A stretch of DNA of 61,068 bases, taken from Candidatus Woesearchaeota archaeon. GTDB lineage: Archaea; Nanobdellota; Nanobdellia; Woesearchaeales; GW2011-AR4. A program made the position numbers and the translations under genes. Where the stretch lies: NCBI GenBank assembly GCA_018303655.1, contig JAGVXT010000014.1:1-61068 (forward strand). The letters run 5' to 3'. Shown here one piece after another: positions 10,733-49,009 of this stretch. The stretch's first letter is position 1, and the number at the start of each line of letters is the position of its first letter. Under the pieces are notes generated by a model, which saw only the letters and a program-made list of their open reading frames with translations, ran no database searches and was not told the origin of the DNA.

Positions 10733-10838
10733 GGGCCCATGGTCTAGTGGCTAGGACATAACCTTCACACAGATGGACATTGCAAATGTCCTCGCTTTGA
10801 GACGGGTTAGGGCAGGAGTTCAATTCTCCTTGGGCCCA
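10733..10838 (+). tRNA. tRNA-Val(CAC) with a 34-base intron
   Basis: Acceptor GGGCCCA (10733-10739) pairs perfectly with TGGGCCC (10831-10837), discriminator A at 10838. D-stem GTCT/GGAC, anticodon stem TAACC (10759-10763) with GGTTA (10805-10809), T-stem AGGAG/CTCCT with loop TTCAATT. The anticodon loop starts TTCACA, giving anticodon CAC (10766-10768). The intron, about 10770-10803, lies at the canonical 37/38 site and contains a GGACAT/ATGTCC hairpin. The 3' CCA is not encoded. Confidence 0.93.
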
Positions 10839-31752: not shown

Positions 31753-32375
31753 TCTTTATAAGCCTCCAAGTCAGCTTTGTTAAAAGGCAAGTATACGTTC
31801 CATTCTTTTTCTATTTGCTTTAAATCCTTTGTTCTTGCATTTTTTACAATAAAATTATTGTCTATATTGCTTCTTAGTAGTGCTTTTCTTGTCTTTTTAT
31901 CCATTTTTCTAACCCTAATCACTGTTCTGGCAGCATCGTACAAAGCCCCTATTTTTCTGCCGATAAGCTCTTTTCTCGCAATTTGGCTTAGTCTCTGCCA
32001 GTTCTTTACTTTATTAAATAAAGCCAGTGATGAGAGCACAGTCCTTAAATCTCCTGTTTTAACAGCCTTCACAACCATTTCCTCTGGAGTTGGTTCATGG
32101 TCGTAAATCCTGTTTGTATAAGGCGCGTAAATCTTTATTTTGGAATTTTTGTTTAAGTATTCATAAAGCCCAGAATAGCCAAACTTATTTGGCTTTAAAG
32201 GCGATATTTTATACATCCTTATCTTTCTTTTTCCATAAACTGTTTCAACAAATCCTTTTTTCCTCAGCATCCATACATAGTTGACAGCCGTTCTTCTATC
32301 TATATCAAGGATTTTTGCTATGCTGTCAACTGTCTGCAGTCCTTCAAGCCTTTTGGCAGTGCCAATTATGTCCAT
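31749..32375 (-). CDS. HTH regulator, AbiEi-like antitoxin partner
   Basis: 208 residues. The N-terminal wHTH, TVDSIAKILDIDRRTAVNYV and WMLRKKGFVETVYGKRKIRMY, is followed by a helical region of unknown fold. Located between its own operator (inverted repeat 32377-32412) and the nucleotidyltransferase gene. The combination suggests autoregulation. Confidence 0.75.
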   Translation of the reverse strand: MDIIGTAKRLEGLQTVDSIAKILDIDRRTAVNYVWMLRKKGFVETVYGKRKIRMYKISPLKPNKFGYSGLYEYLNKNSKIKIYAPYTNRIYDHEPTPEEMVVKAVKTGDLRTVLSSLALFNKVKNWQRLSQIARKELIGRKIGALYDAARTVIRVRKMDKKTRKALLRSNIDNNFIVKNARTKDLKQIEKEWNVYLPFNKADLEAYKE

Positions 32376-32612: not shown

Positions 32613-34679
32613 TCAAGCAGCTTCTGCTACTGTTCTGTCTGTTCTTATAATTGCTTTCAAGACACAATTATGTTTAATCGAAAGTACTCTATCCAAATTA
32701 GAAATAAAAACATCTTTTCCTCTCTGATGCAGAACCTTTCCTTCTCCCAAATATAATGCCATGTGGGTGTAACTTCTGTTTGGCATATTTTCCGGAGAAG
32801 TTCTTAAATATATTCCCACTAAATCGCCAGGTTTGATTACCTTATGGTAATCTTCTTTGGACTCATTTTTTCTCCATACAACATAATTTCCAGGCATTCT
32901 TCCCATATCCCATGCATCTGCCGAAGCATACTTAAGACCAAATAATTTCTCTGCTGCAAGACGGGCATATTTAGCGCAGTTTTTCTCACCTATACCTTCG
33001 ATAGGAGGCAAAGCATCAGTTTTTGTTTTTAAACTATCATATCTCATTCTAAATTCATATTTAGGCCTATCATATAAAAAGCCAATATTTTCCAATTGTT
33101 TTTTTCCAGCTCTTCTTAGTAGCCTAAGAATTTTTGGTTTTTCTTTTAATAGACCACTATATAACTTTAGGTGCTCATTTAAAAATCTTATAGGTCCATA
33201 GACGTCCAACGCTTTAACATATATTTCATGACAATACCTTTCATAGAAACTGTAACTTTCCATGATCCTAACAACACTCTTGTATAAATTTTTAGGATTA
33301 TCTGCAATGCCAGATGATAATTCCCCCGGTACTGTAACAACAGGCTTTCTTGCTGCCATGGCCTCTATTGCAGAAATAGAATATAGATTTGGTGTTCTTC
33401 CAGGCTGGACTAATATGTCTCCTGCAAGATAATAAGCTGCGTATTCTTTTATATTTTTAATCCACCCAGTAGGAATAATATTACCAATAAATTTCTCATT
33501 TAAACCGTAGGATTTAACCAAACTATTCATTGTATCAGAATCTTTTCCGGCACCAATCAATAACAGCTTAGTACTCGGATATTCCTCACATACTTTATTA
33601 AAACCCAACATTAAGGTTTCAATCATTTTTTCTTTAGAAATCCTTCCTGAATAAAAAAGAACAAAATTATTCTCTTTGTGTATACCTTCTCTTATTATTT
33701 TTGCATTTTCCATAACTTCAGGAGAATCTAATATAAACCAAAGTGGCGTTGTATTTTTTATTGTACTGGTTTTTTTACCTATCTCTCTTCCAAATATCTT
33801 GCCCATTGCTATTTGGTGGCTTTCTGATACGTTAATAATTGCATCTGCCTTTTTTATCATATCTATCTGGCCTGGGTTGCGTTTAGATGTGTAGTAAGAG
33901 AGATCTATAGCTCTTCTGATGGCATTTGGATCTACTCCCCCAGTTAAAAGCTCTTCTGGTCCGTAATCCACTAATATCTGCCTATATGGAAGAAGGTCGT
34001 GAATAGTATAAACAAGTGGGGGGTTCTCTAATTCAATGAGGAGTATATTCAACATACCTCTTGATTGGATTGTGTGGGTATGAGCATGTATAACATCAGG
34101 ATAGAACTTAAGTTCTTGCATATTCCTTAAAATTACATCCAAGTCCCGGTGTACCACAATTACCTCTAATTTAAGTTCGTCTTCTTCTACTCTGCATAAT
34201 ACAAGGTTAAAATCTTTGCTTGCAACTGGAAAATAATTTAACATTAAAACCTCATGACCAGCCAACACAAGAACTCTTGCTAAATCTTTTTGTACTGATG
34301 TAACTCCGCAGAGTATTGACAGGGGCAATCCAAAAATCAATATTTTAAGCTTAAATGGAGATTTTGGAATTGCAATTCTTTTTCTGGGTTTAATGGGTAA
34401 TCTCGTTTTACTTTCATAAATTCTCCTTATTTCAGCATCTTTACCAATTACTGTCAAACTGCCATTTATGATTCTACTTTCTACAGTGCTTAAATCTGTG
34501 ATGGTGGTATTAGTCAGATCTACAACTCTCAAATATGGTAATCCTGCAAGAATATCAACTCTATCAAACATAGTGTTAGAAACATTAAGTTCCTGTAAAC
34601 TAGCAAATCCAGCTAAACCAGAAAAAAAGAACTTTTTATCTGATAAATCTAAGGAAACCACATCCTCTGGTTTAACCAT
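32613..34679 (-). CDS. Fusion: leucine-rich segment + GT4 glycosyltransferase + NlpC/P60-like domain
   Basis: 688 residues. Residues 5-75 are two to three leucine-rich repeats (SLQELNVSNTMF, YLRVVDLTNTTITDL). Residues 110-520 are a group 1 glycosyltransferase: KILIFGLPLSILCGVTSVQK, HAHTHTIQSRGML, FYSGRISKEKMIE and SISAIEAMAARKPVV with the EX7E-type motif. Residues 560-688 look like a Cys-His peptidase/amidase: C568 in GEKNCAKYARLA, H639 in YTHMALYLGEG, H651. No signal peptide or span. Three bases after the membrane/coiled-coil gene. Acts perhaps in surface glycan building and trimming. Confidence 0.75.
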   Translation of the reverse strand: MVKPEDVVSLDLSDKKFFFSGLAGFASLQELNVSNTMFDRVDILAGLPYLRVVDLTNTTITDLSTVESRIINGSLTVIGKDAEIRRIYESKTRLPIKPRKRIAIPKSPFKLKILIFGLPLSILCGVTSVQKDLARVLVLAGHEVLMLNYFPVASKDFNLVLCRVEEDELKLEVIVVHRDLDVILRNMQELKFYPDVIHAHTHTIQSRGMLNILLIELENPPLVYTIHDLLPYRQILVDYGPEELLTGGVDPNAIRRAIDLSYYTSKRNPGQIDMIKKADAIINVSESHQIAMGKIFGREIGKKTSTIKNTTPLWFILDSPEVMENAKIIREGIHKENNFVLFYSGRISKEKMIETLMLGFNKVCEEYPSTKLLLIGAGKDSDTMNSLVKSYGLNEKFIGNIIPTGWIKNIKEYAAYYLAGDILVQPGRTPNLYSISAIEAMAARKPVVTVPGELSSGIADNPKNLYKSVVRIMESYSFYERYCHEIYVKALDVYGPIRFLNEHLKLYSGLLKEKPKILRLLRRAGKKQLENIGFLYDRPKYEFRMRYDSLKTKTDALPPIEGIGEKNCAKYARLAAEKLFGLKYASADAWDMGRMPGNYVVWRKNESKEDYHKVIKPGDLVGIYLRTSPENMPNRSYTHMALYLGEGKVLHQRGKDVFISNLDRVLSIKHNCVLKAIIRTDRTVAEAA

Positions 34680-34682
34680 ACT

Positions 34683-36683
34683 CTATCTACCCCTAAACCT
34701 AATTCTTCCCTGTGCTTCTAATTCCCTTTCATCAATGCCTAACAGCTTAGTAATATCTTCCGCTTGAGTTTTTTGAACTGGAGTTTTGGTTTTTTTGGTT
34801 CTTGCCTTTATTCCATTCACAAACTCCTCTATTCTCTTTCTTCTCTCTCTAATATTTGTTAAAATAACTCTTGTGAAATTAGAAATGCCTACCTTGACAT
34901 TTCTAGTCCTGCTTAGATATTCTGCTAGCGAATCCCATAATCCCCTGAATCTGCTCACCTTACTGATCTTTTTTGCTTCATCAACAATTTTATCAGCATC
35001 CGGGCTAGCAGAAATTTCTTCAGTTTTTAATAATTCATAAATATCTTGGCTAATTTCTTCTTCAATCGTTTTCCTTGATTCTCGTAGAATTTCTAAGGTC
35101 TTTACTTCCTCATTCAATTCCTTTAATTTTCCTATTTCTTCTTCAACCTCGGGATAAACTGGTTCTTCATAAGGAGATTCCGGCTGAGGTGTTGGTGCAG
35201 GAGCTTCAGGTCTAGGTTGTGCAGTTGGTGTTAGACCGCTTATTATCCTCTTCAACTCTTCCAATTTACTTTTCTGCAGCTCAATTTTTTGGTTTAGTAG
35301 TTTGTTTATAATCCCAACTTCCATAGCATTATAGTGATGCAATTTTGTATTATCTTCCTTGACTTTAGCAAATTTATCCCTTATAAGCTCTTCAACATTA
35401 TGCTCCTGCAGCAACTGATCCAATTCTTTGTTTAACTTCGCTTCTCTTTTTTCATAATCATAGCAAATAACAATCAGCCACAATATGCCCATGTTTCTTA
35501 TGTCCCTTATTGTTGGTTTGTATGTTATCAAATTTCTTAGTTCTTCCAATTGCTGCAATATCCTTTGTTTGCTAGCATCATCAATTCCAGTTTCTCTCAT
35601 GATTCTTTCTTGCCAATTATTTAATTTGCTGTCTAAAAATTCTGTCTTTTCCAGGTCTATCAATTCCTTTAGCTTGATTATCAATTGCAGTTCTTTATTG
35701 TAAAGATCCTTAAGCGGATGTCCTTCTTCTATGCCTCTTACAGCTTCCCAAGCATAAGCCGGATCCTGTAATTTTTCTATCACTGCCATTCTGTTCTCAG
35801 CCATTTGAATCATTTGGTTTTTTTCTTGATTTGCTTGTTTTACCTCATTCATTTTAGCGGTTTTTTTATTAATAATTTCATCAATTTCATTAATGATTGT
35901 TGATGCTTGCCTTCTTTCTCCTCTTACCCTTCTAAACAACCTAAAACCCCCATACGATAAAGCCACCAACAAAGGTATTATCCAAAGTAAATGTCCAGCA
36001 GAATAACCACCAGGTAGCCAGCCTTGGCCTCTTTTCTCCTCAACAGGAGTTGTTGCAGATGGCAAAGTAGTCAAATCAGGCCCTGTGGGAGCTGCAACTT
36101 GCGCTCCAAACAAATCAGTCAGGTAATCAGGCACTCCTGGCGTTTCGGGAAACTGAATGCTGGCAAAACTCTTGGACAACGAGCTGAAAAATCCCTCTGT
36201 GTCAGGAGATAACGCATCAAACAATCCCTGTATCAATCCAATTGTCAGCAATGTCAGCAGCAAAGCCAGGATAAATCTCCAGAACTTGCTTTTTATCCCT
36301 TTCAATATAAACAATAAGGTATACAAAAGCCAGTGTATGTAGGGCAGCAGTATAGTTGCTGAAAATCCTCCTAAAACAAGCAAAAATGCAGTCATCAACC
36401 CAAGCAAAATTGCTATTACTTTCTCAGGCTTTTTGACTTCTTTAAACGCGTACCTTACTCCAATCATATAAACGGATATAAACAACAATGCAAAGAAGAA
36501 AAAATCTATTGCTGTTGTATAAGCCTTGTACTGCTCATTGGCAAAAAAATCATTGATTTGTGTTAATCCTCCTGTGAAAGCGTCTGTGAAGGGCTTGGCA
36601 TAAGTGAGTGTTGAGAGTAATAATATCAATGCAATTATCAAAATTACACTTATTATTTTTTTGTTGATATTGATTATTTTCAT
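34683..36683 (-). CDS. Membrane protein with long coiled-coil cytoplasmic region
   Basis: 666 residues from ATG 36683, with AAGGTTTT upstream. A signal-like first segment (ending TYAKPF), then three or four spans (about 45-165), a linker, another span around 225-245 (HLLWIIPLLVALSYGG), and from 255 on a Lys/Glu-rich coiled coil with a Pro-rich break (PRPEAPAPTPQPESPYEEP). Ends in RIRFRGR. No enzyme motif. Coupled to the glycosyltransferase fusion; perhaps its membrane anchor or a scaffold. Confidence 0.7.
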   Translation of the reverse strand: MKIININKKIISVILIIALILLLSTLTYAKPFTDAFTGGLTQINDFFANEQYKAYTTAIDFFFFALLFISVYMIGVRYAFKEVKKPEKVIAILLGLMTAFLLVLGGFSATILLPYIHWLLYTLLFILKGIKSKFWRFILALLLTLLTIGLIQGLFDALSPDTEGFFSSLSKSFASIQFPETPGVPDYLTDLFGAQVAAPTGPDLTTLPSATTPVEEKRGQGWLPGGYSAGHLLWIIPLLVALSYGGFRLFRRVRGERRQASTIINEIDEIINKKTAKMNEVKQANQEKNQMIQMAENRMAVIEKLQDPAYAWEAVRGIEEGHPLKDLYNKELQLIIKLKELIDLEKTEFLDSKLNNWQERIMRETGIDDASKQRILQQLEELRNLITYKPTIRDIRNMGILWLIVICYDYEKREAKLNKELDQLLQEHNVEELIRDKFAKVKEDNTKLHHYNAMEVGIINKLLNQKIELQKSKLEELKRIISGLTPTAQPRPEAPAPTPQPESPYEEPVYPEVEEEIGKLKELNEEVKTLEILRESRKTIEEEISQDIYELLKTEEISASPDADKIVDEAKKISKVSRFRGLWDSLAEYLSRTRNVKVGISNFTRVILTNIRERRKRIEEFVNGIKARTKKTKTPVQKTQAEDITKLLGIDERELEAQGRIRFRGR

Positions 36684-36685
36684 TT

Positions 36686-37204
36686 TTAAAACCTTGAAAT
36701 ACATTGTTTTATTATCTCAACAATTTTATCTTCGCCGAACAAAACAGCACCTTTTTTCAAAATCTGGAGCATTTGCGAGTCTTTTTTCCTGAATAACCCA
36801 ATAAGCTCGTCTTCTGTTTTTGCAGTAACCTCGACATTTGGGATTGAAACATCAAGAACAGTGATGTTGTCTGTTATCAACAACAATATTTTTTTATCAA
36901 AGATAGCGGCATCTGCTTGCTTTAATTTCTCAATATCAATCTCAATTTTTTCTTCAGAATAAAGTAAAACAACTGCAGCCAGATGCTCTGCAATCTTGTT
37001 TTCAAAGTTAATTCCATAGAACAATCCAGTTCCAAGCTTCTGGCCGACAACAATGCTTTGCTTTTCCAGTTTCTTTAGAATGTTAAAAACACCAGCAGGG
37101 CTGAAGTTTAGCCTTTGGGCAATGTTCCTTATTGTGAGCTTTTCAGCGAAGTTTCTAACTAGAAAGCTAATTACGCTAAACTCGTTATCTGATAAGGATA
37201 TCAT
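36686..37204 (-). CDS. Winged-helix regulator
   Basis: 172 residues: FSVISFLVRNFAEKLTIRNI, AQRLNFSPAGVFNILKKLEK and KQSIVVGQKLGTGLFY form a wHTH. The C-terminal half has NTase-neighbour-like character (VLLYSEEKIEIDIE and KKILLLITDNITVLDV), seen with archaeal wHTH/nucleotidyltransferase proteins. It heads the operon with the membrane/coiled-coil and glycosyltransferase fusion genes, which it probably regulates. The 230 bases upstream are very AT-rich. Confidence 0.7.
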   Translation of the reverse strand: MISLSDNEFSVISFLVRNFAEKLTIRNIAQRLNFSPAGVFNILKKLEKQSIVVGQKLGTGLFYGINFENKIAEHLAAVVLLYSEEKIEIDIEKLKQADAAIFDKKILLLITDNITVLDVSIPNVEVTAKTEDELIGLFRKKDSQMLQILKKGAVLFGEDKIVEIIKQCISRF

Positions 37205-37433
37205 TGTTTACTATTAATTAATATATATCTATTATTTCCAGTTTAATTATCAGTATTTAAAGCTTTCTATTTTATATTTAAGATTTAATGTTTAGTTTTT
37301 AAGAATAAATAATTAAAATTTATAATTAAATATACTTAAATTTAAAATGAATGATTAGTATTTTTAAATAATATTGTTTTTGAGAAGTAAAACGAAAGAT
37401 TTATATATTTTAATTAATTCATTAATTAATGAA

Positions 37434-37670
37434 ATGATAAAGAAAATATCCAAAGGATACCAAATAACAATTCCAGCAGAAATAAGAAAAACGTTTGATT
37501 TAACTATAGGAACACCAATAGATATAGAAGTCAATAAGGACGAGATTGTGTTAAAACCTTTTAATGCTAAAAAAGAATTGGAAAAACTTTTCAAAGAAGC
37601 GGACAAATTTCCAAGACACAATTTAAGTCCAGAAGACTTGGAGAGAATGGAAGAGGGCATTTATGAATAG
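37434..37670 (+). CDS. vapB: AbrB/VapB-type antitoxin
   Basis: 78 residues from ATG 37434 (MIKKISKGYQITIPAEIRKT), a swapped-hairpin AbrB fold, with a TTTATATATT box at 37399-37408; the longer frame from 37374 overlaps the box. The tail ADKFPRHNLSPEDLERM should bind the toxin. A palindrome, TTAATTAATTCATTAATTAA, lies at about 37412-37431, over the start site, and suits autoregulation. Its stop overlaps the PIN gene start. Confidence 0.88.
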   Translation: MIKKISKGYQITIPAEIRKTFDLTIGTPIDIEVNKDEIVLKPFNAKKELEKLFKEADKFPRHNLSPEDLERMEEGIYE

Positions 37671-38043
37671 GTTTGTTGATTCAAATGTTATAATATATGC
37701 GTTTACAAATAGCAATCAAAAACAAGAATGCAGAAACATTTTAACTCAGGAAAATCTTATCATCAACACTCTTGTTCTTCTAGAGAGTTATGCTAAAATA
37801 TCAACGATAAACTCAGAGGTGTATGCAAGAGTAGTGGCAAGGAACATCTTAAGTTTAGCAAATATAAGAGTTGTGGACTTTACTAACAATTTATTCTTCG
37901 AATCAATTAAAAGAAGCCAGAAATATAAGCTAAAGATAAGTGATTTAGTTCACTACGCAACAGCCTTATTGCATAACTGCAGTGAAATAATAAGCTATGA
38001 CGCGCATTTTGATGGTTTGGATGTGAAGAGGGTTGAGCCTTAA
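37663..38043 (+). CDS. vapC: VapC-type PIN-domain toxin ribonuclease
   Basis: 126 residues. PIN acidic residues are in place: D6 (FVDSNVIIYAF), E41 (LLESYAK), D94 (KISDLVHYATA), D113/D117 (SYDAHFDGL). Cleaves RNA when free of VapB. The eight-base overlap with vapB ensures coupled synthesis. Confidence 0.92.
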   Translation: MNRFVDSNVIIYAFTNSNQKQECRNILTQENLIINTLVLLESYAKISTINSEVYARVVARNILSLANIRVVDFTNNLFFESIKRSQKYKLKISDLVHYATALLHNCSEIISYDAHFDGLDVKRVEP

Positions 38044-38096
38044 GTTCTGCTGTAAAAGAAACATTTAAATATAAGTGTCTATACCCAGTCTATACG

Positions 38097-38924
38097 ATGC
38101 AGATACAAAAATTAGCAATAAAAGAGCAAATAGTTAAAAAGGTAGTAAAATCAGGCAATGGCGGAGCTGTCTGGGTTCCAAAAAACTGGCTTGGCCAAGA
38201 AGTAATTATCATACTTCCAGAAAAGCCTAGGCTAGGCCTCAGAGAGAAAGTTATACATTTGCTCGAGCCTTATTTGAAAGATGTTATTGCGGTTTTTATT
38301 TATGGCTCATATGCAAGACACGAAGAAACAAAAGATTCTGATATTGATGTGATGGTTATTACAAAAGATAAAACTATTTCAATAGAAGTTAAAGAACCGA
38401 ATTTGGAAATAACAGCTTTTGAATTGGATAAATTCAAGAAAGCAATTCAGAGATATCCTGTCATGTACTATCAAATTGTTCAAGAAGCGGAGCCTTTGAT
38501 CAATGCATATGTTTTGGATGAATTAAAAGATATTCAAATTGACAATGAAAACTTTAAAACATACATTGATGAAACAAAAGGGAATATAGAAAGCAATAAA
38601 GAGCTTATAGAGCTTGATAAATTGGATAACAAATATGCAAAATCTTATTCTGTATTATACTCAACAATGCTTAGATTAAGAGGAATGTTTATTATAAAAT
38701 GTATACTAGACAGTAACAAATTTTCTAATAACTCATTTCAAGAATGGCTAATTCAAAGTGGAATGGCACATCAGGAATTTGAGCAATGTTATACTGCTTA
38801 CATGGCAGTTAAAAATGATAAAAGCACTCAAAATATAAAGATTGAAATTTCTATTGCAGAGAAATTATTAAATATTTTAATAAAGTGTGTAAATTCTATA
38901 GAAGCTGAGCTTTATGGTAAATAG
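38097..38924 (+). CDS. DUF2080-like/nucleotidyltransferase fusion protein
   Basis: 275 residues. Residues 10-42 (KKVVKSGNGGAVWVPKNWLG) are AbrB-like, of the DUF2080 type known from transposon-encoded proteins. Residues 60-100 are an MNT nucleotidyltransferase core, FIYGSYARHEETKDSDIDVM. The rest is helical, perhaps HEPN-like (PVMYYQIV, YMAVKNDKST). CATTTAAATATAA at 38065-38077 precedes ATG by about 25. Two direct TCTATAC repeats (38080-38095) lie at the start. Possible self-regulated toxin/antitoxin module. Confidence 0.8.
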   Translation: MQIQKLAIKEQIVKKVVKSGNGGAVWVPKNWLGQEVIIILPEKPRLGLREKVIHLLEPYLKDVIAVFIYGSYARHEETKDSDIDVMVITKDKTISIEVKEPNLEITAFELDKFKKAIQRYPVMYYQIVQEAEPLINAYVLDELKDIQIDNENFKTYIDETKGNIESNKELIELDKLDNKYAKSYSVLYSTMLRLRGMFIIKCILDSNKFSNNSFQEWLIQSGMAHQEFEQCYTAYMAVKNDKSTQNIKIEISIAEKLLNILIKCVNSIEAELYGK

Positions 38925-39105
38925 AAAAAAGAGGTTGCAAAAAGGAATTGAATCACTCGAACAACAAATAAAATTACATGAAGAAAAACTCAAGAAATCC
39001 TAGGAAGAAGATAATATAGAGCTTGCTTCATATTATAAAAAAGAGATAGAAGCAAAGAAAATAGATAAAGACGAAAAGAAAAGATTGCTTGAAAAGGGAG
39101 GGTGA
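38914..39105 (+). pseudogene. Small coiled-coil gene with in-frame TAG
   Basis: ATG 38914 overlaps the end of the nucleotidyltransferase gene. The frame reads IESLEQQIKLHEEKLKKS, then TAG at 39001-39003, then continues EEDNIELASYYKKEIEAKKI and KKRLLEKGG before TGA. The continuity of the helix across the stop suggests one nonsense mutation in a 63-residue gene that may be linked with the enzyme upstream. Confidence 0.7.
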
Positions 39106-39142
39106 AAATGATTAAATATGTTTTTGTTTAGGATGAATGTTT
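39094..39142. repeat. 49-bp direct repeat, left copy
   Basis: Identical to 40411-40459 over 49 bases, with near-identity continuing ~20 bases leftward. It covers the last codons and GGAGGGTG of a small gene plus a mini-ORF MIKYVFV. The two copies bracket the Fic gene, 1,317 bases apart, like ends of an insertion or a recombination scar. Confidence 0.85.
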
Positions 39143-39253
39143 ATTTTTTATATATATTCTATATTTAAGAATAATTCAGTTTTCTTTATTTTAGTAATTA
39201 ACTTTGTCTGGCAAAACTGCTTAATATTTGATGGAATGAGAGAAAGACTGATT

Positions 39254-40237
39254 TCAACCCCATCTAGCGAATATGGTATTGTAAGTTTTTAATAAACTAA
39301 AATAGCAAAAATCAACCATCTTTTTATGCTCTAATTGAGTTTTGTTAAGTTCCGTATTATCAGCTTCTGATAATGCATTGTAGTATCTTTTTCTTTGCGC
39401 ATCAGGAACTATTAATGGAGGCATTTTATTGTTAATGAGGATAAGGTTTAATAGCATTCTTCCTGTCCTTCCATTACCATCATAAAAGGGATGAATATTT
39501 TCAAACTTATGATGAAATGCAGATGCTAAGATTAAAGGATGTAATCTATTTTTTTCCTTTCTGAACCATTTTAAAAGAATATTCATGTCTATTCTCACAA
39601 ATTCTGCTGGACTTGCTTCAAAAGTTGCGCCAAAAACCCTTACATTATGTATTCTGTAATAACCTATTCTTTTATCTATGTTTTTCATTAATAGTGAATG
39701 AATTTTTATAATTGTTTCATGATTGATTTTAGGCTTTTTTTCTAGCATAAAATTAAAAGTGTCCTTAGAATTCAAATGATCATTTATTTCCCTAAGACTT
39801 TTGCCGCTAGGAGTTATATTTTTATTCAACAAAAGATCTGTATCCCTCAATGTTAAAGTATTGCCTTCGATAGCATTTGTGTTAAAGACAAAAAGAGTTA
39901 TAAAATCATTATACATATCTTTCAATGTTTCTTTGTCCAGAATTTTTAATTTTTTATTAAAGCTGTTTTCTATTTGCTTTAACTTGTTTAATTGCTGCTC
40001 GCTTAAAATTTCTTTATTTATATCTACGCTTTCTAGCTTTAACTCTTCCAATGTTTTTTGCTTTACCTCATCAGCATTTTTTTTGAATCTTTCAAAAATT
40101 CTTTTAGCTTTATTTTTATGAATATTGCCTTTCCCTAAATAGGCTATAGTCTTAGTCCTGACTTTATCTCTCAATCTAACAGAAATCTTTAAGTAATTAT
40201 AGTAGTCCTTTCCAATTTTCTTCTTTTCTATGTACAT
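39254..40237 (-). CDS. Fic-domain protein AMPylase (Fido)
   Basis: 327 residues. Fic motif HPFYDGNGRTGR at 249-260 with catalytic His, plus an inhibitory helix TNAIEGN (120-126) of the S/TxxxEG type, so it is a self-inhibited class. The N-terminal 90 residues are basic and helical (IAYLGKGNIHKNKAKRIFER), perhaps recognition. Fic enzymes transfer AMP or other groups to hydroxyls of target proteins. Lies between the 49-bp repeats, antiparallel to the small genes on either side. Confidence 0.9.
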   Translation of the reverse strand: MYIEKKKIGKDYYNYLKISVRLRDKVRTKTIAYLGKGNIHKNKAKRIFERFKKNADEVKQKTLEELKLESVDINKEILSEQQLNKLKQIENSFNKKLKILDKETLKDMYNDFITLFVFNTNAIEGNTLTLRDTDLLLNKNITPSGKSLREINDHLNSKDTFNFMLEKKPKINHETIIKIHSLLMKNIDKRIGYYRIHNVRVFGATFEASPAEFVRIDMNILLKWFRKEKNRLHPLILASAFHHKFENIHPFYDGNGRTGRMLLNLILINNKMPPLIVPDAQRKRYYNALSEADNTELNKTQLEHKKMVDFCYFSLLKTYNTIFARWG

Positions 40238-40470: not shown

Positions 40471-42321
40471 TTATCCTGATTGCTGCGGCTTAAATGGATC
40501 TTTTGTTAATGGTCTGCCCCATCTTCCTAGATTCGGACCAATATCGTAACCATGTGTCTGGTTGGCTATTCTGCTTAGTAGCTGCAATACACCTTGATTG
40601 TTTCCTGTATTCCCCCAATATTTAGTTTGGTCTATAACCCTGTGCAGTATGTAAAGGGCAGCACCTCTTGTAGTAAGTGTTGGTTCTTTTGATTGCACGC
40701 TCTGGTCTTGTCCATCATAATAATACTTTCTTCCCCAGTGAATCGCCTTGCTTGTTGCATTTTTCAAATCAAACGCTGGATTTAAATGAGTTGACTTTAT
40801 AGTCTCGTGGACCACATCTGGGTCAGTGTTAGGTCTGAATTGACTTGCTCCACGTTTATTAAGCTGCACCCGGACTTTGGCGTGAGGTTTTTCTCTACTT
40901 CTGCTAAAATCAGGAGACAAAACCGTCCCGTCAGGAGCCCGAACATAATTTCTTACATTACTTGGTTCTAATGGGTCAAGATTTTCCATTAGATACTCCA
41001 TTATAGACATAGAGTCTTCATGGTATCGTGCATCTCTCATGTCATCTCTATAAGAATCAAAGTGAGCATAAACATACACAGCAATATCAATCGGATGGCA
41101 TTCAGTCACAAATCTCGGGTCCACTTCTCTGACCGTTACGGCTGGGTCAGTTACTCCTGTAAGTTCTCTATGGGTCACATCCCAGTTGTGGAATATGTCT
41201 ATCACAACCTTATTTTCTTCTAAAACTCCATTTCTAAATCCTGTTTTTCCATCTCCAATTTCAAGCGGCATTCCATTTTCATCTAATCCAGCCGCAAATT
41301 CTTTTCCTCTGCGAAAATTTTGATGAAAATCAGCAAATCTTCTAACAACACCATTTACAATAATTTCTTTGTGCATGTCTATAATTTTATAAGTGTGAGT
41401 GTAATGAACTTCTCCAGGCTCAAGCCTTAAACCCATTATCTGCTTCTTTATACCATCCATCAACTGGAACATATTTCCAGCTCCAACTCTTCCGCTCACT
41501 AAACTGTAATGAATCTTACTTTCAAATGCTCTGATTTTTTCTTCCACAGCCTTTATTGCTGTGAGATACCTTTCTCTAATTATATCTAAATTTTTATTGA
41601 TATTTTCTTGCTGTTCTCCAGTCTTACCTGCCCTTATTCTGTTACCATAGTCATTGATTATATTACTAATATCCCTACTTAAAAGTTCAATATACTGGTT
41701 TATACCCCTCTCCCCAAAAAAAGCTGCTCTGTAAGTAAGATTGCCATGCCTAAATTCTTCTTCTTTTGGCAAAATATAACGATACTCCAAAGGCTGTCCT
41801 CTTAGATTACTTGGGTCGCTAATTTTTATCCAAGGTCTATCAGCTATATCTTTAAAGCCTGTGCCTGTGTTCAAGTAGCCCCCCTCCCTTTCTATTTCCT
41901 CTTCATCAGTAAAATATCCAATTCCCTGATTGTGTCTTACAAATTCATGTGTATCTAATCCTACTTTCACACTGAACTTTTCTTGGTCATTGAAATTATT
42001 TGCATAGTAATCAATCATTTGGGCCATTTTTCCAGCAGCAGAATTTGGATCTGTCTTTTTGTCTGGTCTTTCTTCTTTTGGAATGCCGTCCCATTTTAGC
42101 TCTGTATTTACCATTAAATCATTCAAATTTGCAATTGTTTGAAAATTGATTTCGCCCTTTAGTTCGTCGTAAATGTTAATATCTGTTAATTCAAAACCAG
42201 GTTCTGGCTCATCTTTAAAGCCACTGAACCCCATTTTCCTTAGAAGCCATTTTCTCCATTGAGTTATTGGCACTAAATGCCGTATTCCTTTTTTCTCCGG
42301 TTTTGGTTGTTCATCAGCCAT
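40471..42321 (-). CDS. Large soluble protein of unknown function (operon protein C)
   Basis: 616 residues, ATG after AGGTGT. No signal peptide, span or known catalytic motif. A helical middle (residues about 215-290) lies between beta-like ends. Near the C-terminus it has DPRF about residue 427 and HWGRKYYYD about residue 551, matched by DARF and YWGRKKYFD in protein A of the same operon (43938-45272), so the two are probably distant relatives. Last gene of the five-gene operon; overlaps protein B by eight bases. Confidence 0.75.
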   Translation of the reverse strand: MADEQPKPEKKGIRHLVPITQWRKWLLRKMGFSGFKDEPEPGFELTDINIYDELKGEINFQTIANLNDLMVNTELKWDGIPKEERPDKKTDPNSAAGKMAQMIDYYANNFNDQEKFSVKVGLDTHEFVRHNQGIGYFTDEEEIEREGGYLNTGTGFKDIADRPWIKISDPSNLRGQPLEYRYILPKEEEFRHGNLTYRAAFFGERGINQYIELLSRDISNIINDYGNRIRAGKTGEQQENINKNLDIIRERYLTAIKAVEEKIRAFESKIHYSLVSGRVGAGNMFQLMDGIKKQIMGLRLEPGEVHYTHTYKIIDMHKEIIVNGVVRRFADFHQNFRRGKEFAAGLDENGMPLEIGDGKTGFRNGVLEENKVVIDIFHNWDVTHRELTGVTDPAVTVREVDPRFVTECHPIDIAVYVYAHFDSYRDDMRDARYHEDSMSIMEYLMENLDPLEPSNVRNYVRAPDGTVLSPDFSRSREKPHAKVRVQLNKRGASQFRPNTDPDVVHETIKSTHLNPAFDLKNATSKAIHWGRKYYYDGQDQSVQSKEPTLTTRGAALYILHRVIDQTKYWGNTGNNQGVLQLLSRIANQTHGYDIGPNLGRWGRPLTKDPFKPQQSG

Positions 42322-43945
42322 TTTTTACACCTGCAAATGCAACAAACATTTCTCTTGCTTTATTTAAATCAATTCCTTCAATATTTAATTTTATTGAAAT
42401 CACAAAATCAACAAAACCAACATTTCTATTAATTAATGTACTCATATCTCCGCTTATATATTTGACAGCACTATTTAAATATTCAGATTTTTGTTTCATT
42501 TCAGCTTCGTTTTTCTTCAAGCTATAAAATAAGTCACGCATCCTTGCTAAATCAAAATCAAGCATCAGCAAATGCGGAAATATATTTTTTCCAGTCTTAA
42601 GATTTTGGAATAATATATTCTTATGTATTCTAAAATCATTCAAGGCCTTTAGTTTCAGCATGAACAAGCGTGTATTTCTGTCTATCATACCTTTTTCAAA
42701 TATATCTTTCATTATCGGCTCTAATTTTGAATGCACATCAAAAATTTCTCTAATAAATTGTGCTAATTGTCTTTTCCTCGCTTCCCACAACCTTCCAACA
42801 AACCTTTCGATTTTTTTGATTGTTTTTTCTAGGAAATCATCAATATATTTTGATGATTCCCTAAATATTTCTTGGATAAAATTTTGTGCGCTTGTTAATA
42901 ACCAATCCTGTCTTTTTCTGAAGACATCTACCAAAAATTCCTGTGAGCTTCTGATAGCATATTCTTTTTTGCCAATTGCCCCTTCAACTATTTTAATCAT
43001 TTGCCGAAGCATATCTCTTAACTTGAACGGCTGCTCACCAATTTCTCTGGCTTGCCGTCTAAGCATATTTGCTAAATAAACATTCTTGTAGTTATTTACT
43101 AGGGTGCCAGCATTACTATCAACATCATCTAAAAATAGTTTAGTGCTTTTATCTTGGACCCAGACATCTCCCGAGATATCTTGCTCTAAATTTCTAATAA
43201 GTGATGCTAGAAATCCTTTTTGCGCTTCTGCCTTGTATGTTAAGTGAGCAATAGCTCTTAAGTACCTAATAGGACGTGAAGCATAAACTATTCTTTTCAA
43301 TTCAGTATCTTTAAATTTATCAATTCCAGCAAAATTGCTTGGGATTATCGGTCTAAAGTAAGAACCCACACGCGTCAAATAAAATTCTATCTCATTGTGC
43401 GGCAGACGGTCCCAATTCTTTAGATCAGTTATTGCAATCTGCAATGCATCTGACTCTTCTAGTTTATTTTTTATTGAAAGTATTCTATTCCTAATTTGCA
43501 CTTTTAGTTTTTCCTGGCTTAATTCTTCTATATCCTTCAGGACAATATTTGTGTTTGCCCTGAATTCATTAACATCTTTTGTCATTCCTAAAACCTTTTC
43601 AAGAATTTCAAAATCCCTAATTATTTTGGCTAAATCCGATTCCACCAGTCTATAAGCATTTTTGTCTGATTGGATTTGGAGAATAATCTGCCTCAGTGCA
43701 GGCATCAACCGACTTATGTCTAAAATTTTGCCTTTCATTTGTTCCTTTTGTCGCCTTATAATAGAGATTAGCCTATATTCTGCTGCAAAAGCTTTCAATT
43801 TTTTATCATCATTGATCACAACAGAGTAATTAGTAATCATTAAATCTGAAGTGTCGAGAATATCCAAAGAAGCCTCTAAATACTGCATGATTTCTTCATT
43901 AATAAGTTGCACTTCTTCCTCAGGATTTATTATTTCTTCAGCCAC
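42314..43945 (-). CDS. Large helical protein of unknown function (operon protein B)
   Basis: 543 residues from GTG 43945, with AGGAG eight bases upstream. Nearly all helix, with coiled-coil-like runs (KKIERFVGRLWEARKRQLAQ, KKNEAEMKQKSEYLNSAVKY). No membrane or enzyme motif. It overlaps the genes on both sides by eight bases, so the three large proteins are made together and perhaps in fixed ratio. No family recognised. Confidence 0.72.
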   Translation of the reverse strand: MAEEIINPEEEVQLINEEIMQYLEASLDILDTSDLMITNYSVVINDDKKLKAFAAEYRLISIIRRQKEQMKGKILDISRLMPALRQIILQIQSDKNAYRLVESDLAKIIRDFEILEKVLGMTKDVNEFRANTNIVLKDIEELSQEKLKVQIRNRILSIKNKLEESDALQIAITDLKNWDRLPHNEIEFYLTRVGSYFRPIIPSNFAGIDKFKDTELKRIVYASRPIRYLRAIAHLTYKAEAQKGFLASLIRNLEQDISGDVWVQDKSTKLFLDDVDSNAGTLVNNYKNVYLANMLRRQAREIGEQPFKLRDMLRQMIKIVEGAIGKKEYAIRSSQEFLVDVFRKRQDWLLTSAQNFIQEIFRESSKYIDDFLEKTIKKIERFVGRLWEARKRQLAQFIREIFDVHSKLEPIMKDIFEKGMIDRNTRLFMLKLKALNDFRIHKNILFQNLKTGKNIFPHLLMLDFDLARMRDLFYSLKKNEAEMKQKSEYLNSAVKYISGDMSTLINRNVGFVDFVISIKLNIEGIDLNKAREMFVAFAGVKNG

Positions 43946-45272
43946 CTTGTTTCTCCTGGTGTGTTTTTTCTATTATATCATAACCTTGCTTGAAATAATC
44001 ATTTAATAACTTCTTTGTTCGTTCTGGATCACCAGCAGTTCCAGTTGAATATTTGAAAATAAAGTCCCATAATCCTTTTAAAGATATTCCAGGATACGGA
44101 TTGGCAGGGAATTGCCTGATTTCGCTTCCATTTGGAGATTGATCAAAATATTTTTTTCTACCCCAGTAGTTTAGTGCATGTGGTATCTTAAGAGCTTCTC
44201 TGTCAAATGCAACTTCTCCCATACCTATAGGCCTGTTAAATTGTGCAGTGCTGAATTTTTCATAGGATATATTGAAATGCCTTTGGTAGTCCTCTACTCG
44301 TCTACTCAAAGGATGGAAAAATCCATCTAACATATCCTTAGTGGCATACTCCCAATCCTTTTCCGAAAATGTTAAAACATGTTGAAACCTTGCATCCATA
44401 TTTGATGTTACATGTAGTTCGCTGACATCAGACTTGTATTTTTCATCCGCTGTATCTATATAACCGACTCTGAACCTCCTTATATATGGAAGATTAATTC
44501 CCTCTACCCGTATTTTATTAATGTCTGTGATACTAAAACCATATATATTCAGTTCCAAAAGTTCCTCGCCATTTGGATCTTCTTTATACTCATTCCGGAA
44601 AAGTCCAGGAATTTTTACAACTTTTGTAAAGTCAATTGATCTTGTGACTGTGTGACCTACATCTTCTTGAGATGGCTGCTCAATTGCTTGATTGTAAGAG
44701 TAGTGTTCTGCAAGTGCTTCTGGCTTCGCAAACAAATACCCTCTTTTGTATGTGCCGTACATGTTAAGTAAATCCCAAAATGCTAGCTTATTTGCCCTTG
44801 TTACTAGCAAACCCTTGTACCTTCCTATTCCTGATAAATATCGATTGTACCTAGTATCAATATGATTTTTCCACGCATTAGAGATAATTTCTCCACCTTC
44901 TCCAGTTTGAACCCAATTTCCTGCTTGAGTTGATGCGGACTCCGCTATTTCAGGTCTTCGGGTTAGGTCTTTCTCCAAATCCTGCTTCAATTGATTCATC
45001 AATTGAACAAAAATAAAATAAAACCTGCCCCATCCAACAGAATTTCTTGGGTCTCCAAGCATGTTCCATATGTCACCAGCAGGCCCGATTTCCGCACCTT
45101 CAATATGGTCTTTAATTCCCTTCAAAATTTCCTCTTCAGTAGGCTTCGTAGTCCCCAATCTTCTTTCAGTTTCCTTAACTTGTTCCTTTATATCAGTAAC
45201 GACAGCACCCTTTCTCATCCAAACTTCGTGTCTCAACATCCAGTTTAACAAAGTGTAAATCTCCAGTCTCAT
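43938..45272 (-). CDS. Large soluble protein of unknown function (operon protein A)
   Basis: 444 residues from ATG 45272, six bases after the upstream stop; a TTG at 45293 is another possible start. N-terminal helices (LLNWMLRHEVWMRKG), a mixed middle, and near the C-terminus DARFQHVLTFSEKDWEY and LNYWGRKKYFD, features shared with protein C. No signal, span or catalytic motif. Possibly a structural or substrate-recognition part. Confidence 0.72.
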   Translation of the reverse strand: MRLEIYTLLNWMLRHEVWMRKGAVVTDIKEQVKETERRLGTTKPTEEEILKGIKDHIEGAEIGPAGDIWNMLGDPRNSVGWGRFYFIFVQLMNQLKQDLEKDLTRRPEIAESASTQAGNWVQTGEGGEIISNAWKNHIDTRYNRYLSGIGRYKGLLVTRANKLAFWDLLNMYGTYKRGYLFAKPEALAEHYSYNQAIEQPSQEDVGHTVTRSIDFTKVVKIPGLFRNEYKEDPNGEELLELNIYGFSITDINKIRVEGINLPYIRRFRVGYIDTADEKYKSDVSELHVTSNMDARFQHVLTFSEKDWEYATKDMLDGFFHPLSRRVEDYQRHFNISYEKFSTAQFNRPIGMGEVAFDREALKIPHALNYWGRKKYFDQSPNGSEIRQFPANPYPGISLKGLWDFIFKYSTGTAGDPERTKKLLNDYFKQGYDIIEKTHQEKQGG

Positions 45273-45277
45273 ATCTT

Positions 45278-46477
45278 TTATATCAAATGGCAACTCATCA
45301 GAACTTCATTTCTTAATCTGAAAACTTTTCTCATTACCCATGCAGCAGCTCTATTTTGCCTTAATTTTCTTTTTATTTCTTGCCAACCTCTTGATCTTCC
45401 TTCCTGTACCATAGACTGTTTGTCTGCTCTTTGTTTAGACCTCCCAATCACAAACAACAATATTAAACCTATAATTGCAATTACCAGCGCACCTCCGCCC
45501 ATCTTGAATATCCAGCCAAACCATCCTGTGCCAGATGGCTGTGCAGCCGCTCCGGTCGGCCCAACCTGAATTAAGCCCATAGCCCAAAGAGGTGTGCCAA
45601 CTATCCATGCAAGCCATCCCTGGTATTCTGTCCCATAAGTCATTGCAGCCGATGCCCATCCGATCAAGAATGCTGCAAGTATCCAGTTAGTGCTCTTGCC
45701 TTTGACGTCAGGAGCAGTTCCCTTCAAGGCTTCTGCCAGAACTATTGTGAAAATCGCCTCTCCAAGCAAAACAATGCTTGCAAAGCTTATGCCAGCTCTT
45801 GCAACGCTCGAGCCAATTAAAATTGCCAGGGCATAATTGACTTTATTTGTGCCGCCTGCTCCTCCTTTCAGCAAAAATCCGTTAAAAAAGAAAGACAATA
45901 AAGTTGCCACAGTTATGAAAGCCCATAGCCTGTATTCAGGAGGCGCCGGGTTTAAAATTCCCTGCGATCCGAACAAATAGTCAATAAACTGCCGCACAAC
46001 CGCTTTTTGCCATATCCATTGGTTGCCAATCTGAACAGCAAATAGCGCTGCTATCAGGAATATTATTATTCCAAGTCCGCCTTTTCCTTCTGGCGAGCCA
46101 CCTAACTTTTTGTTTATATCCAAAAAGCCAGATAGGAAATACAAGACAATTCCAATTACAACGGCATTAACCAAAACATAAATGCTGAAAAACTTTGCAA
46201 AAACCGGGTGCAGCCATATAAACCCGCTTCTTCCGAACAGGAATCCAATCAGCAAAGAGCCGGCAATTATTGCAACCCATACGGCAGTTTGTTCTTTTGG
46301 TTCTTTTTTAGGGATTAAAAAAGTCTGCAAAATAAACAAGACAATTCCAACAATTAGTGAATTAACTATAATAAAAAACAAGCTGCTTTGTGTGAATGCT
46401 TGAGCATGAACTATAGGCAATGAGATTCCTACTATCAAAAACAATGCAATATTCCATATTAACTTATTTTTTCTCAT
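45278..46477 (-). CDS. Multi-span membrane protein of the ATPase operon
   Basis: 399 residues. A signal-like start (IWNIALFLIVGISLPIVHAQ) and about nine to ten hydrophobic segments, ending in a basic cytoplasmic tail (GRSKQRADKQSMVQEGRSRG, KLRQNRAAAWVMRKVFRLRN). Overlaps the ATPase stop by four bases (ATGA). No transporter signature seen; most simply the membrane platform of the operon's complex. Its general layout recalls the 34683 membrane protein. Confidence 0.75.
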   Translation of the reverse strand: MRKNKLIWNIALFLIVGISLPIVHAQAFTQSSLFFIIVNSLIVGIVLFILQTFLIPKKEPKEQTAVWVAIIAGSLLIGFLFGRSGFIWLHPVFAKFFSIYVLVNAVVIGIVLYFLSGFLDINKKLGGSPEGKGGLGIIIFLIAALFAVQIGNQWIWQKAVVRQFIDYLFGSQGILNPAPPEYRLWAFITVATLLSFFFNGFLLKGGAGGTNKVNYALAILIGSSVARAGISFASIVLLGEAIFTIVLAEALKGTAPDVKGKSTNWILAAFLIGWASAAMTYGTEYQGWLAWIVGTPLWAMGLIQVGPTGAAAQPSGTGWFGWIFKMGGGALVIAIIGLILLFVIGRSKQRADKQSMVQEGRSRGWQEIKRKLRQNRAAAWVMRKVFRLRNEVLMSCHLI

Positions 46478-47631
46478 AATTCCTTTGCAGCCTCATCCAA
46501 AATTTTGTCATCAGGAGCATCATCAAACTCATAGCCTTGAGAAGTCAGCTTCAGCCAAAGCCTCAAAACATTGTCAGCAAAATAGAACTTGTTGTCTTTC
46601 TTGTGGATGATGTCAACTTCCATCAATCTTTCAAGAATGCTTTTTGTAACAGGAGCGCTCCTGTAGATTTTCTTTGCGATTTCTGTAAGCCTTAATTCAT
46701 CGTTTGCAACAACTTTCAGGATTGTTTTGAGAAGAGTCTGGCCCCTTGCCCTGTTGTAATAATAATCAAATGATTCGCTGCAATAATCATAAATGGAATT
46801 ATTTTTCTGCAATAACTCAATCAGGAAGGCTTTTTTAACATCCTTTATTTTGTTGTATTTTTCAGAAATCAGTATTGTTACAAGAGGCTGCCCGCTGCTT
46901 AAAGCAAAAACTTCATCAATAGTCTTCTGCTCAGCCTTTTCAATAATTGCTTTGATTAATTCTGCTGCCTCATTTTTCTCCAGATTTTTTATTTCATAGC
47001 ATTCAAAGTTTTTCAATAAATGAAGAGATTGCTTTATGGAAGAGCTTGCGGCAATATAGCTTACATTCTCAGCCTTAAAATTAATGATTGACAAAATATC
47101 CTTAATCTGGGAGAAATTGTTCAGGTCAAGCAGATTCTCAAAATTGTCCAAAACAATCAGGAATTTTTTGCCGCTTTCCTTTCCCAATGCTTCAGCAAAC
47201 TTAAAGGCGCTCTCAACAAGCAGTTTTTGGTTTGGCTTTATCTTCAGCAGCTCGTTTTCAACTGTTTTTATTAAAGAAAAAGCGCTTTTGCTTTTCAGCT
47301 CATTTTCAAGCTTTAACAAATGCTCAAGTATCAGGCATTTTTTGTATTCTTTTAATGGTTTTTTTAAATAATGAAAAACAACATTTCCAATGAATTCAAT
47401 CGAGAAATTCTCAGGATTTAAGCTTATTTTTTCCAAATCAATATAGACAGGAACAATATCCTTGGCATTCTTAAGATGCTCTTTGACAATTGATGTTTTG
47501 CCTGACTTCCTTGGGCCAAGCAAAGCAATGTTCTTTGCAGCGCCTTTCCTGAAAGAATCTGTATTCTTATCTAGCAAATCAAGGTAATACTTTCTCCTGA
47601 CAAATGCCTCTTTTCCAGCCAAACAATTCAC
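46474..47631 (-). CDS. AAA/STAND-type archaeal ATPase
   Basis: 385 residues from GTG 47631. Walker A GPRKSGKTSIVKEH at 39-52, Walker B FLIVLDNFENLL in the middle, and a sensor-like SYIAASSSI. The C-terminal 90 residues form a winged helix (RLTEIAKKIYRSAPVTKSIL and a MEVDIIHKKDNKFYFADN wing), as in the archaeal ATPase family PF01637. First gene of the five-gene operon. Such ATPases act as NTP switches or motors. Confidence 0.88.
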   Translation of the reverse strand: MNCLAGKEAFVRRKYYLDLLDKNTDSFRKGAAKNIALLGPRKSGKTSIVKEHLKNAKDIVPVYIDLEKISLNPENFSIEFIGNVVFHYLKKPLKEYKKCLILEHLLKLENELKSKSAFSLIKTVENELLKIKPNQKLLVESAFKFAEALGKESGKKFLIVLDNFENLLDLNNFSQIKDILSIINFKAENVSYIAASSSIKQSLHLLKNFECYEIKNLEKNEAAELIKAIIEKAEQKTIDEVFALSSGQPLVTILISEKYNKIKDVKKAFLIELLQKNNSIYDYCSESFDYYYNRARGQTLLKTILKVVANDELRLTEIAKKIYRSAPVTKSILERLMEVDIIHKKDNKFYFADNVLRLWLKLTSQGYEFDDAPDDKILDEAAKEL

Positions 47632-47676: not shown

Positions 47677-47845
47677 TATACCAATTGGCATATATACTTA
47701 TAATATAAAAACATTTCGATTATGTATAAGTATACCTTTTGGTATATTATTTTAAAATTAATATTCCATTTTGTATAGAACTTATATATAAGCTTTACGA
47801 TTCTCTATAATTCTACTAATTGGTATATATATTTTTTGGTATAAA
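47677..47845. promoter_or_regulatory. Array of TATACC-N4-GGTATA palindromes
   Basis: TATACCTTTTGGTATA at 47731-47746 is a perfect palindrome; TATACCAATTGGCATA at 47677-47692 differs by one base; GGTATA half-sites recur at 47822-47827 and 47838-47843. The array fills the AT-rich space between the ATPase operon and the divergent RHH gene, and probably controls the former. Confidence 0.6.
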
Positions 47846-48000: not shown

Positions 48001-48144
48001 ATGAAGCAGAAATTAAGCATAACTCTTGATGAAGAATTAGTCAATGAAATAATCAAAGCTCTTTCTAGCGGCAAGTTCAGGAACAAAAGCCATGTTGTAG
48101 AGTATGCTGTGAAGAAGCTGCTTGAGGTGGAAAATGGCAGATAA
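48001..48144 (+). CDS. Ribbon-helix-helix (CopG-type) regulator
   Basis: 47 residues: MKQKLSITLDEELVNEIIKA then KFRNKSHVVEYAVKKLLEVE. The first strand plus two helices are the RHH DNA-binding fold, which acts as a dimer. It is probably autoregulated through the palindromes just upstream and may also control the divergent ATPase operon. Overlaps the next gene by 11 bases. Confidence 0.85.
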   Translation: MKQKLSITLDEELVNEIIKALSSGKFRNKSHVVEYAVKKLLEVENGR

Positions 48145-49009
48145 CAATGCGGCTCAAGCTCCTGAAGCTAAAAAAGAAGAGAAGCCAAAAGCGCCAACTA
48201 CATTAGAAAGCGCGCTTAAGGAATCTTCTGATGCAGTCAAATCTTCTGCAAATGCATTGATAGGCACAGGCGCAATTGCAGCAGCAACCGCTTTGTTTGG
48301 TTTGGATGGCTTGATCCTTGCATCCTCTTTTCCAATAGGCAGAGCGATTCATGAATATTCAAAAGCCGATGGCAAAGGAAAATTCACAAGCGGAAATTTC
48401 AGGGATGAGTCAATTTCAGGAGTTATCTTCACAGGGCTTGCAAAATACGGAGTTGATGCAACAATGCAAATTCCTAAATCATTCGGGCTTGAGAATGCAG
48501 TTGTAAATATTCTTGGTCATTCTGTGTCCACAGGAGCATTGGCTGTCGGCGCAGCAACAGGCCTTGCTCTGAACCCGTTGCTGAATGCTGCTTACTACCC
48601 ATTACAATACCTGATACAAAATAAAACCTTCAAGGGCATGGGGCAGGATTTCAAAAAGAATTATGTAAAGAGCTTGATAAGAACAGCGCCTTTGTCAGCG
48701 ATAACCTCGGTAGCTGTTGGATTAGCTTACGCAATGCCAGCTTTTGCTCCGTTGCTGTTTCCTTACTTTGCTTTGTCCGGCCTGGCTTATAGGGTTTTGA
48801 TGTCTCCTGAAAAGATAAGATACAAAAAGCTAGGCAAAACTTTGTTATCACCGCTTTACGCGCCATTCTATCTAACAAGCGGCATTGCAACTGCCGCAGG
48901 CAAAGCATACAGCAAAGCTGCAGCAGCAGCATACAGCTTAGGCTCTGCAATTGGAAGTTTATTCAAAAAAGCGCCAGCCCCAGCGGCAGCATCGGTGCCA
49001 GCTCATTAG
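48134..49009 (+). CDS. Ala-rich multi-span membrane protein
   Basis: 291 residues from ATG 48134, with GAGGTGG upstream inside the RHH gene. A polar Pro/Ala/Lys-rich start, then about six hydrophobic segments (about 40-60, 130-155, 180-220, 245-275), and an Ala/Pro-rich end. No family recognised. Co-expressed with the RHH regulator and facing the ATPase operon, so it may belong to the same system. Ends with TAG. Confidence 0.72.
   Translation: MADNNAAQAPEAKKEEKPKAPTTLESALKESSDAVKSSANALIGTGAIAAATALFGLDGLILASSFPIGRAIHEYSKADGKGKFTSGNFRDESISGVIFTGLAKYGVDATMQIPKSFGLENAVVNILGHSVSTGALAVGAATGLALNPLLNAAYYPLQYLIQNKTFKGMGQDFKKNYVKSLIRTAPLSAITSVAVGLAYAMPAFAPLLFPYFALSGLAYRVLMSPEKIRYKKLGKTLLSPLYAPFYLTSGIATAAGKAYSKAAAAAYSLGSAIGSLFKKAPAPAAASVPAH

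Follow-up and report, generated by a model that had tools for sequence, protein, structure and literature searches.

Within a 61,068-nt stretch of DNA from a Candidatus Woesearchaeota archaeon (hereafter the window), we describe a five-gene operon that is, judged by the collections searched without a match, an undescribed conserved locus of the order Woesearchaeales. A unit of ~5 kb, comprising the 451-aa soluble half of a membrane protein and the 543-aa and 616-aa proteins, moves between species, and sharp identity breakpoints together with phylogenetic conflict with the flanks identify it as a horizontally exchanged polymorphic cassette. The reading that we favour, at a probability of about 0.5, is that the operon would encode an autoregulated membrane-tethered cytoplasmic complex with a soluble cassette under diversifying selection. 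An earlier note had proposed an undescribed system here, and this has held up: the gene set is conserved, membrane-associated, travels with its neighbours and is unmatched in the collections searched. Features are collected in Table 1.

Table 1. Positions of the operon, its promoter elements, the exchanged unit and neighbouring genes in the window (protein motifs by residue)
Feature	Position	Strand	Remarks
F4 family	34683-36704	-	673 aa
MarR-like HTH protein	36686-37204	-	172 aa; neighbour of the 673-aa gene in some genomes of the genus
Exchange cassette	40471-45490	-	from the anchor's last TM helix to the stop codon of the 616-aa gene
Soluble alpha/beta protein	40471-42321	-	616 aa
Helical soluble protein F1	42314-43945	-	543 aa
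Membrane-protein soluble half	43938-45293	-	451 aa; fused to the anchor in most relatives
Membrane anchor	45278-46477	-	399 aa
wHTH-ATPase, gene 1, likely autoregulator	46474-47631	-	385 aa
ATPase Walker A	about aa 39-46		
ATPase Walker B	about aa 158-165		
ATPase winged helix	about aa 290-352		
Operator-like palindrome TGCCAATTGGTA	47679-47690	-	adjoins the ATPase start
Operator-like palindrome TACCAAAAGGTA	47733-47744	-	
Operator-like palindrome TACCAATTAGTA	47814-47825	-	135 bp upstream of the proximal copy
F3 family	48122-49009	+	295 aa; divergently transcribed

The five overlapping genes that had been claimed are all present on the minus strand, as ORFs of 385, 399, 451, 543 and 616 aa (2,394 residues in total). 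Three of the junctions lie where they had been placed, with overlaps of 4 nt (46474-46477), 8 nt (43938-43945) and 8 nt (42314-42321), but the second had been put at 45272-45278 and is instead a 16-nt overlap at 45278-45293, counted with a TTG start. The 399-aa and 451-aa ORFs correspond to one protein of about 820-1,100 aa in most relatives, with a length of 820-1,002 aa in many genomes of the genus and family, and the boundary between its membrane and soluble parts is the point at which the genes are split in the window and in several other lineages. The split occurs in G000 and G009 with an identical frame change at 45270-45311 (...RNEVLMSCHLI* / ...ELPFDIKDMRLEIY); it lies near the cassette edge, and separate genes or programmed frameshifting would both fit. 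The ATPase had been described as the sole gene of recognisable family, which agrees with our searches: it has only weak ATPase_2 and AAA_14 matches and the other four genes have no family. For these four, Pfam gave only coiled-coil noise; the membrane protein and the three soluble proteins matched no Pfam, NCBIfam or PHROG family and no PDB chain, and PDB profile searches with four alignments returned only coiled-coil look-alikes.

The locus (ATPase, soluble proteins or both) is present in about 16 of the 20 genomes of the genus, most of the genomes compared being incomplete metagenome assemblies, and the 616-type protein in 16 of 20. The ATPase was found in 17/36 family genomes and in 14/149 sampled genera of the order, and in a 279-genome sample of the phylum it is restricted to this order, in ten families of which the locus occurs in reduced form. 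Whether the five genes stay together had been suggested as a check. Throughout the genus and family the ATPase gene comes first and the membrane-protein gene second, and those of the ~550-aa helical protein and the ~600-970-aa 616-type protein come next. Nine other families (f3, f42, f57, f64, f70, f76, f78, f79 and f83) also have a homologous membrane protein after the ATPase, followed in many of them by a homologous helical protein. Such conservation of order far exceeds what chance would give. The more distant families lack the 616-type protein, and its profile did not reach into f70/f83-type operons. The nearest named relative, and the only one found in a scan of named genomes, is Woesearchaeota RIFCSPLOWO2_01_FULL_35_20. 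The part of the Woesearchaeota and DPANN symbiosis literature covered here describes nothing similar.

Evidence for exchange of the cassette comes from nucleotide breakpoints, dS and AU tests, which concur. G000 and G011, sisters by the ATPase, are 82% identical at the nucleotide level between 49034 and 45447; beyond a stretch with almost no similarity, that identity returns at 36631. Their protein identities are 89% for the ATPase, 83% for the anchor and 84% for F4, and only 37, 28 and 39% for the three cassette proteins; in G004 and G010 the corresponding series runs 90 and 68% for the ATPase and anchor, 29, 28 and 33% for the cassette, and then 94 and 87%. One cassette edge lies in the anchor's last TM helix, at about 45465-45490, and the other at about 40465, where the 616-aa gene reaches its stop codon. 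Both pairs are supported in the ATPase tree (G000+G011, 100/99; G004+G010, 99/97), whereas the tree of the 616-type protein rejects them (AU p 8e-8 and 6e-8, respectively) and groups G010 with G001 and G002. As flanks and cassette are on single contigs in all four of these genomes, binning is not the cause. Between G000 and G009, dS is 0.25-0.55 for the cassette versus 1.03-1.92 for the flanking genes and the cassette is therefore younger than the genome split; its dN/dS of 0.13-0.22 indicates purifying selection and hence functional proteins.

The soluble proteins, mostly 20-40% identical within the genus, also covary. Similarity of the soluble half (MC) is correlated with that of the 616-type protein (S; rho 0.63, p 0.0005) and of the 543-type protein (F1; rho 0.41, p 0.004), as is similarity of F1 with that of S (rho 0.43, p 0.0005), and similarity of the set bears no significant relation to that of the ATPase or the anchor. 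Two members are paralogues, as the 616-aa protein and the soluble half of the membrane protein align with an HHalign probability of 99.2% (E 2e-19) and have in common the motifs D.R.G..HP.S, AFD..A...WGR..Y and NP.P..S..G; in the 451-aa half it is the C-terminal domain that is paralogous, and the 616-aa protein has the motifs RDDLRDGRYHP, AFD..A..HWGR.YY and NP.PH.STRG. An AlphaFold model of the latter is moderately confident (pLDDT 74, pTM 0.68), and Foldseek found nothing significant for it in the PDB and nothing in BFVD. We suggest that the three soluble proteins are exchanged only as a set because they bind one another, and swapping of the whole set under purifying selection suggests a specificity that is maintained by viruses, rivals or partners. 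Type I restriction and other polymorphic loci have conserved flanks and a specificity part that is replaced between strains by recombination. The present locus resembles them in having a recombined part, putatively for specificity, inside conserved flanking parts, but differs in that three proteins of unmatched fold are exchanged together and in the lack of a methylase, nuclease or toxin domain.

Such a pattern may also reflect an antiviral or inter-strain conflict system, in which a membrane-anchored cytoplasmic set would detect or block an invader and allele swapping would keep pace with adapting viruses or rivals. We hold this to be a serious rival, if a tentative one. It would account for the exchange and sharp edges of the cassette, for the presence of VapBC, Fic and nucleotidyltransferase genes within this variable stretch and for a nearby HTH and nucleotidyltransferase pair that is likewise exchanged as alleles. 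However, no nuclease, methylase, toxin or other effector domain was recognised in the soluble set, PADLOC's curated antiphage system models gave only weak partial matches (mad8, LeoBC and CasR) to the ATPase or to coiled coils, and the locus is near-core in the genus while many defence systems are patchy. A second serious rival, which we consider possible though doubtful, is a cytoskeleton-like membrane scaffold, such as an array organizing adhesion or polarity, whose proteins evolve fast since only their helical shape matters. Long coiled coils tethered to the membrane are indeed encoded by relatives in f70 and f83, and one of them, of 1,680 aa, carries an FHA domain; F1 and F4 are largely helical. 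Drift alone would give neither sharp nucleotide breakpoints nor a dS below that of the flanks, however, and specific polar motifs are kept in the 616-type protein. Giant proteins of 1,668-1,680 aa, with two TM helices each, are present in the f70 operons (L100, 12569-17611; L101, 4449-9455); the L100 protein has its helices at the N-terminus, then a long coiled coil and, close to the C-terminus, an FHA domain.

The remaining conserved component, the ATPase, is 71-90% identical within the genus. Its Pfam matches are weak (ATPase_2, E 1.3e-5; AAA_14, E 6e-6; HTH_45, E 0.002); 13/20 members of the family match PF01637 at E<=0.01 and two match HTH_24. The true start is probably three codons downstream of the listed GTG, because relatives start at (M)AGKEAF. 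A P-loop NTPase domain is present and Walker A is intact in most members, with key residues of Walker A and/or B lost in f70 and both f79 genomes. Across ten families the winged helix is the best conserved segment (mean majority fraction of 0.66 versus 0.46 for the Walker A region). The protein resembles ATPase_2/STAND-type ATPases (PF01637) in its P-loop, Walker-B-like segment and C-terminal wHTH, but it scores below the Pfam gathering threshold and is set apart as a family by strong conservation of the wHTH core, a promoter palindrome of its own, a fixed operon and the decay of Walker motifs in some families. The winged helices of STAND-type ATPases do not necessarily bind DNA.

Upstream of the ATPase start, the palindrome TACCAATTGGTA occurs with <=2 mismatches in 24/27 loci, against 0.83 in shuffles, and with <=1 mismatch in 18 of the 27 (0.02 in shuffles). 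In eight genomes searched, exact copies are found at this promoter only, and one-mismatch copies elsewhere in the genomes are at about the background level of control patterns, so no wider regulon is claimed. The promoter is conserved in the genus, where the distal and proximal palindromes are usually spaced by 133-135 bp. A genus of f57 has two ATPase paralogues: the one with recognition helix SAGVTKN (versus SAPVTKS) carries TACTAGCTAGTA, and the other, with the SAPVTKS helix, retains TACCAATTGGTA. The ATPase is, moreover, the sole putative DNA-binding protein recognised in all these operons. We infer that it regulates its own operon, as an autoregulator instead of a motor; this is a better fit because the wHTH is best conserved, the Walker motifs are degenerate in some families and the promoter palindrome is operon-specific. 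For the same reasons, of the membrane-based ATP-driven complex proposed earlier we retain the membrane association and not the ATP drive. Alternatively, the operator could be bound by the MarR-like protein in some members of the genus. Another gene, for an HTH-nucleotidyltransferase protein, likewise has a one-mismatch palindrome, 40 nt upstream (L113, 3534-3545).

The anchor has a signal-peptide-like N-terminus followed by about 8-9 TM helices and a positively charged C-terminus that is predicted to be cytoplasmic, whereas the 451-, 543- and 616-aa proteins have no signal peptide or TM helix, all of these calls being made by hydropathy and not by a dedicated predictor. Loop charges of the membrane protein alternate according to the positive-inside rule, with RSKQR...KRK after the last TM helix, and the topology thus predicted would place the soluble half in the cytoplasm. 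A model of the fused membrane protein is of low confidence (pLDDT 70, pTM 0.47) and Foldseek found nothing significant for it in the PDB.

These features bear on the proposal that the operon is an ATP-driven secretion, pilus or surface-attachment machine, with the ATPase driving export or assembly by way of the membrane protein. An ATPase beside a multi-TM protein in one operon does recall type II/IV secretion and archaeal pili, and relatives of F4 have OmpA or Cys-rich extracellular domains. The predicted cytoplasmic location of the soluble half, and the lack of TM helices or signal peptides in the 543-aa and 616-aa proteins, nevertheless argue against a surface appendage, and surface attachment is not upheld. 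Nor is secretion: the ATPase matches ATPase_2/AAA-type families in Pfam and NCBIfam, with no match to secretion-type ATPases (VirB4, VirD4, GspE/PilT), and has degenerate Walker A or B motifs in f70 and f79, the soluble proteins lack export signals and PHROG, NCBIfam or PDB matches, and profile searches of the operon and its relatives detected no secretion ATPase, platform protein, prepilin, peptidase or VirB homologue. We therefore regard such a machine as unlikely. Refuting matches to secretion, pilus or viral systems, sought by HMM and structure searches, were not found, and gene order is conserved. A domesticated or resident structural module of a virus or provirus would suit large, horizontally exchanged proteins without recognised fold, but is very unlikely, since there was no IMG/VR relative, BFVD fold match or PHROG match and the chromosomal neighbours are fixed across the genus.

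Under the favoured reading of an autoregulated, membrane-tethered complex, the winged-helix ATPase would bind TACCAATTGGTA operators in its own promoter and adjust operon expression; the ATPase domain may act as the switch, according to its nucleotide or ligand state. The multi-TM protein would tether its own C-terminal soluble domain at the inner face of the membrane, where this domain, its 616-aa paralogue and the helical 543-aa protein may bind one another. The soluble set would be the specificity-determining part, with diversity maintained by viruses, rivals or partners. That related species swap this set as one cassette suggests a previously undescribed role for the locus in specificity or conflict.

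Links with neighbours at 48-49 kb and 32.6-37.2 kb had also been proposed; the genes at 48122-49009 and 34683-37204 do belong with the operon, but the 688-aa glycosyltransferase gene at 32613 is not conserved. F3 relatives are divergent and upstream also in f42 and f57, and in six other families the operon has an F4 relative nearby. Hydropathy predicts that F4 begins with a signal-peptide-like segment, has four TM helices before an extracellular loop and a further one after it, and continues into a charged cytoplasmic coiled coil; homology between its TM part and that of the anchor was not found. An OmpA domain (PF00691) is present in the loop of 4/14 F4 members, with no match in the window copy. 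With its loop or OmpA domain outside and its coiled coil inside, F4 may bridge the two sides of the membrane and may pass external contact on to the complex. Zorya (ZorA/ZorB) has membrane proteins with an OmpA-type extracellular domain, long cytoplasmic coiled coils and variable cytosolic partners. The locus family is similar in all three respects, but its TM and OmpA parts are in a single protein, the window copy lacks OmpA, and there was no MotA/MotB or Zor match in Pfam or PADLOC. We weighed Zorya-like, secretion and viral readings and adopted none of them. OmpA-type domains with a GYAS.EG-like motif occur in the predicted extracellular loops of the F4 proteins at L110 (9927-11324), L103 (1-2007), L104 (420-1631) and L101 (2133-4376), which is unusual in archaea that have no known peptidoglycan.

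Woesearchaeota are widespread and uncultured, and their proteins are largely unexplained; here several kilobases of near-core genome encode proteins without a matched family or fold. Claims open to testing follow from the locus: an operator sequence, a putative DNA-binding regulator, a soluble set proposed to bind together and exact cassette edges. It is unusual for the cassette of a predicted cytoplasmic complex to be exchanged while the membrane frame stays fixed; such exchange points to strong diversifying pressure and could open the question of the partners with which Woesearchaeota interact or compete. In its fullest and rather unlikely form, our proposal would be a polymorphic recognition machine, so far of one DPANN order, combining a self-regulating wHTH-ATPase, three traded cytoplasmic specificity subunits and outside contact by F4/OmpA; if true, it would decide with which partner, rival or virus a Woesearchaeon interacts.

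Inserted between the operon and its F5/F4 neighbours, at positions 37374-40237, are a VapBC-like pair, a Fic protein and a nucleotidyltransferase whose start is AbrB-like; like the cassette, this nucleotidyltransferase is shared with G009 at low dS (0.55). An AbiE-like HTH and nucleotidyltransferase gene pair at 31054-32375 has alleles exchanged between conserved flanks, with identities of 44/39% for G000/G009, 77/80% for G000/G013 and 81/84% for G009/G011. The 688-aa protein at 32613-34679, present only in this genome among those examined, joins a glycosyltransferase to an LRR-like start and an NlpC/P60-like end. Finally, a 106-base tRNA at 10733-10838, called by Rfam and not by ARAGORN (bacterial settings), probably contains an intron.
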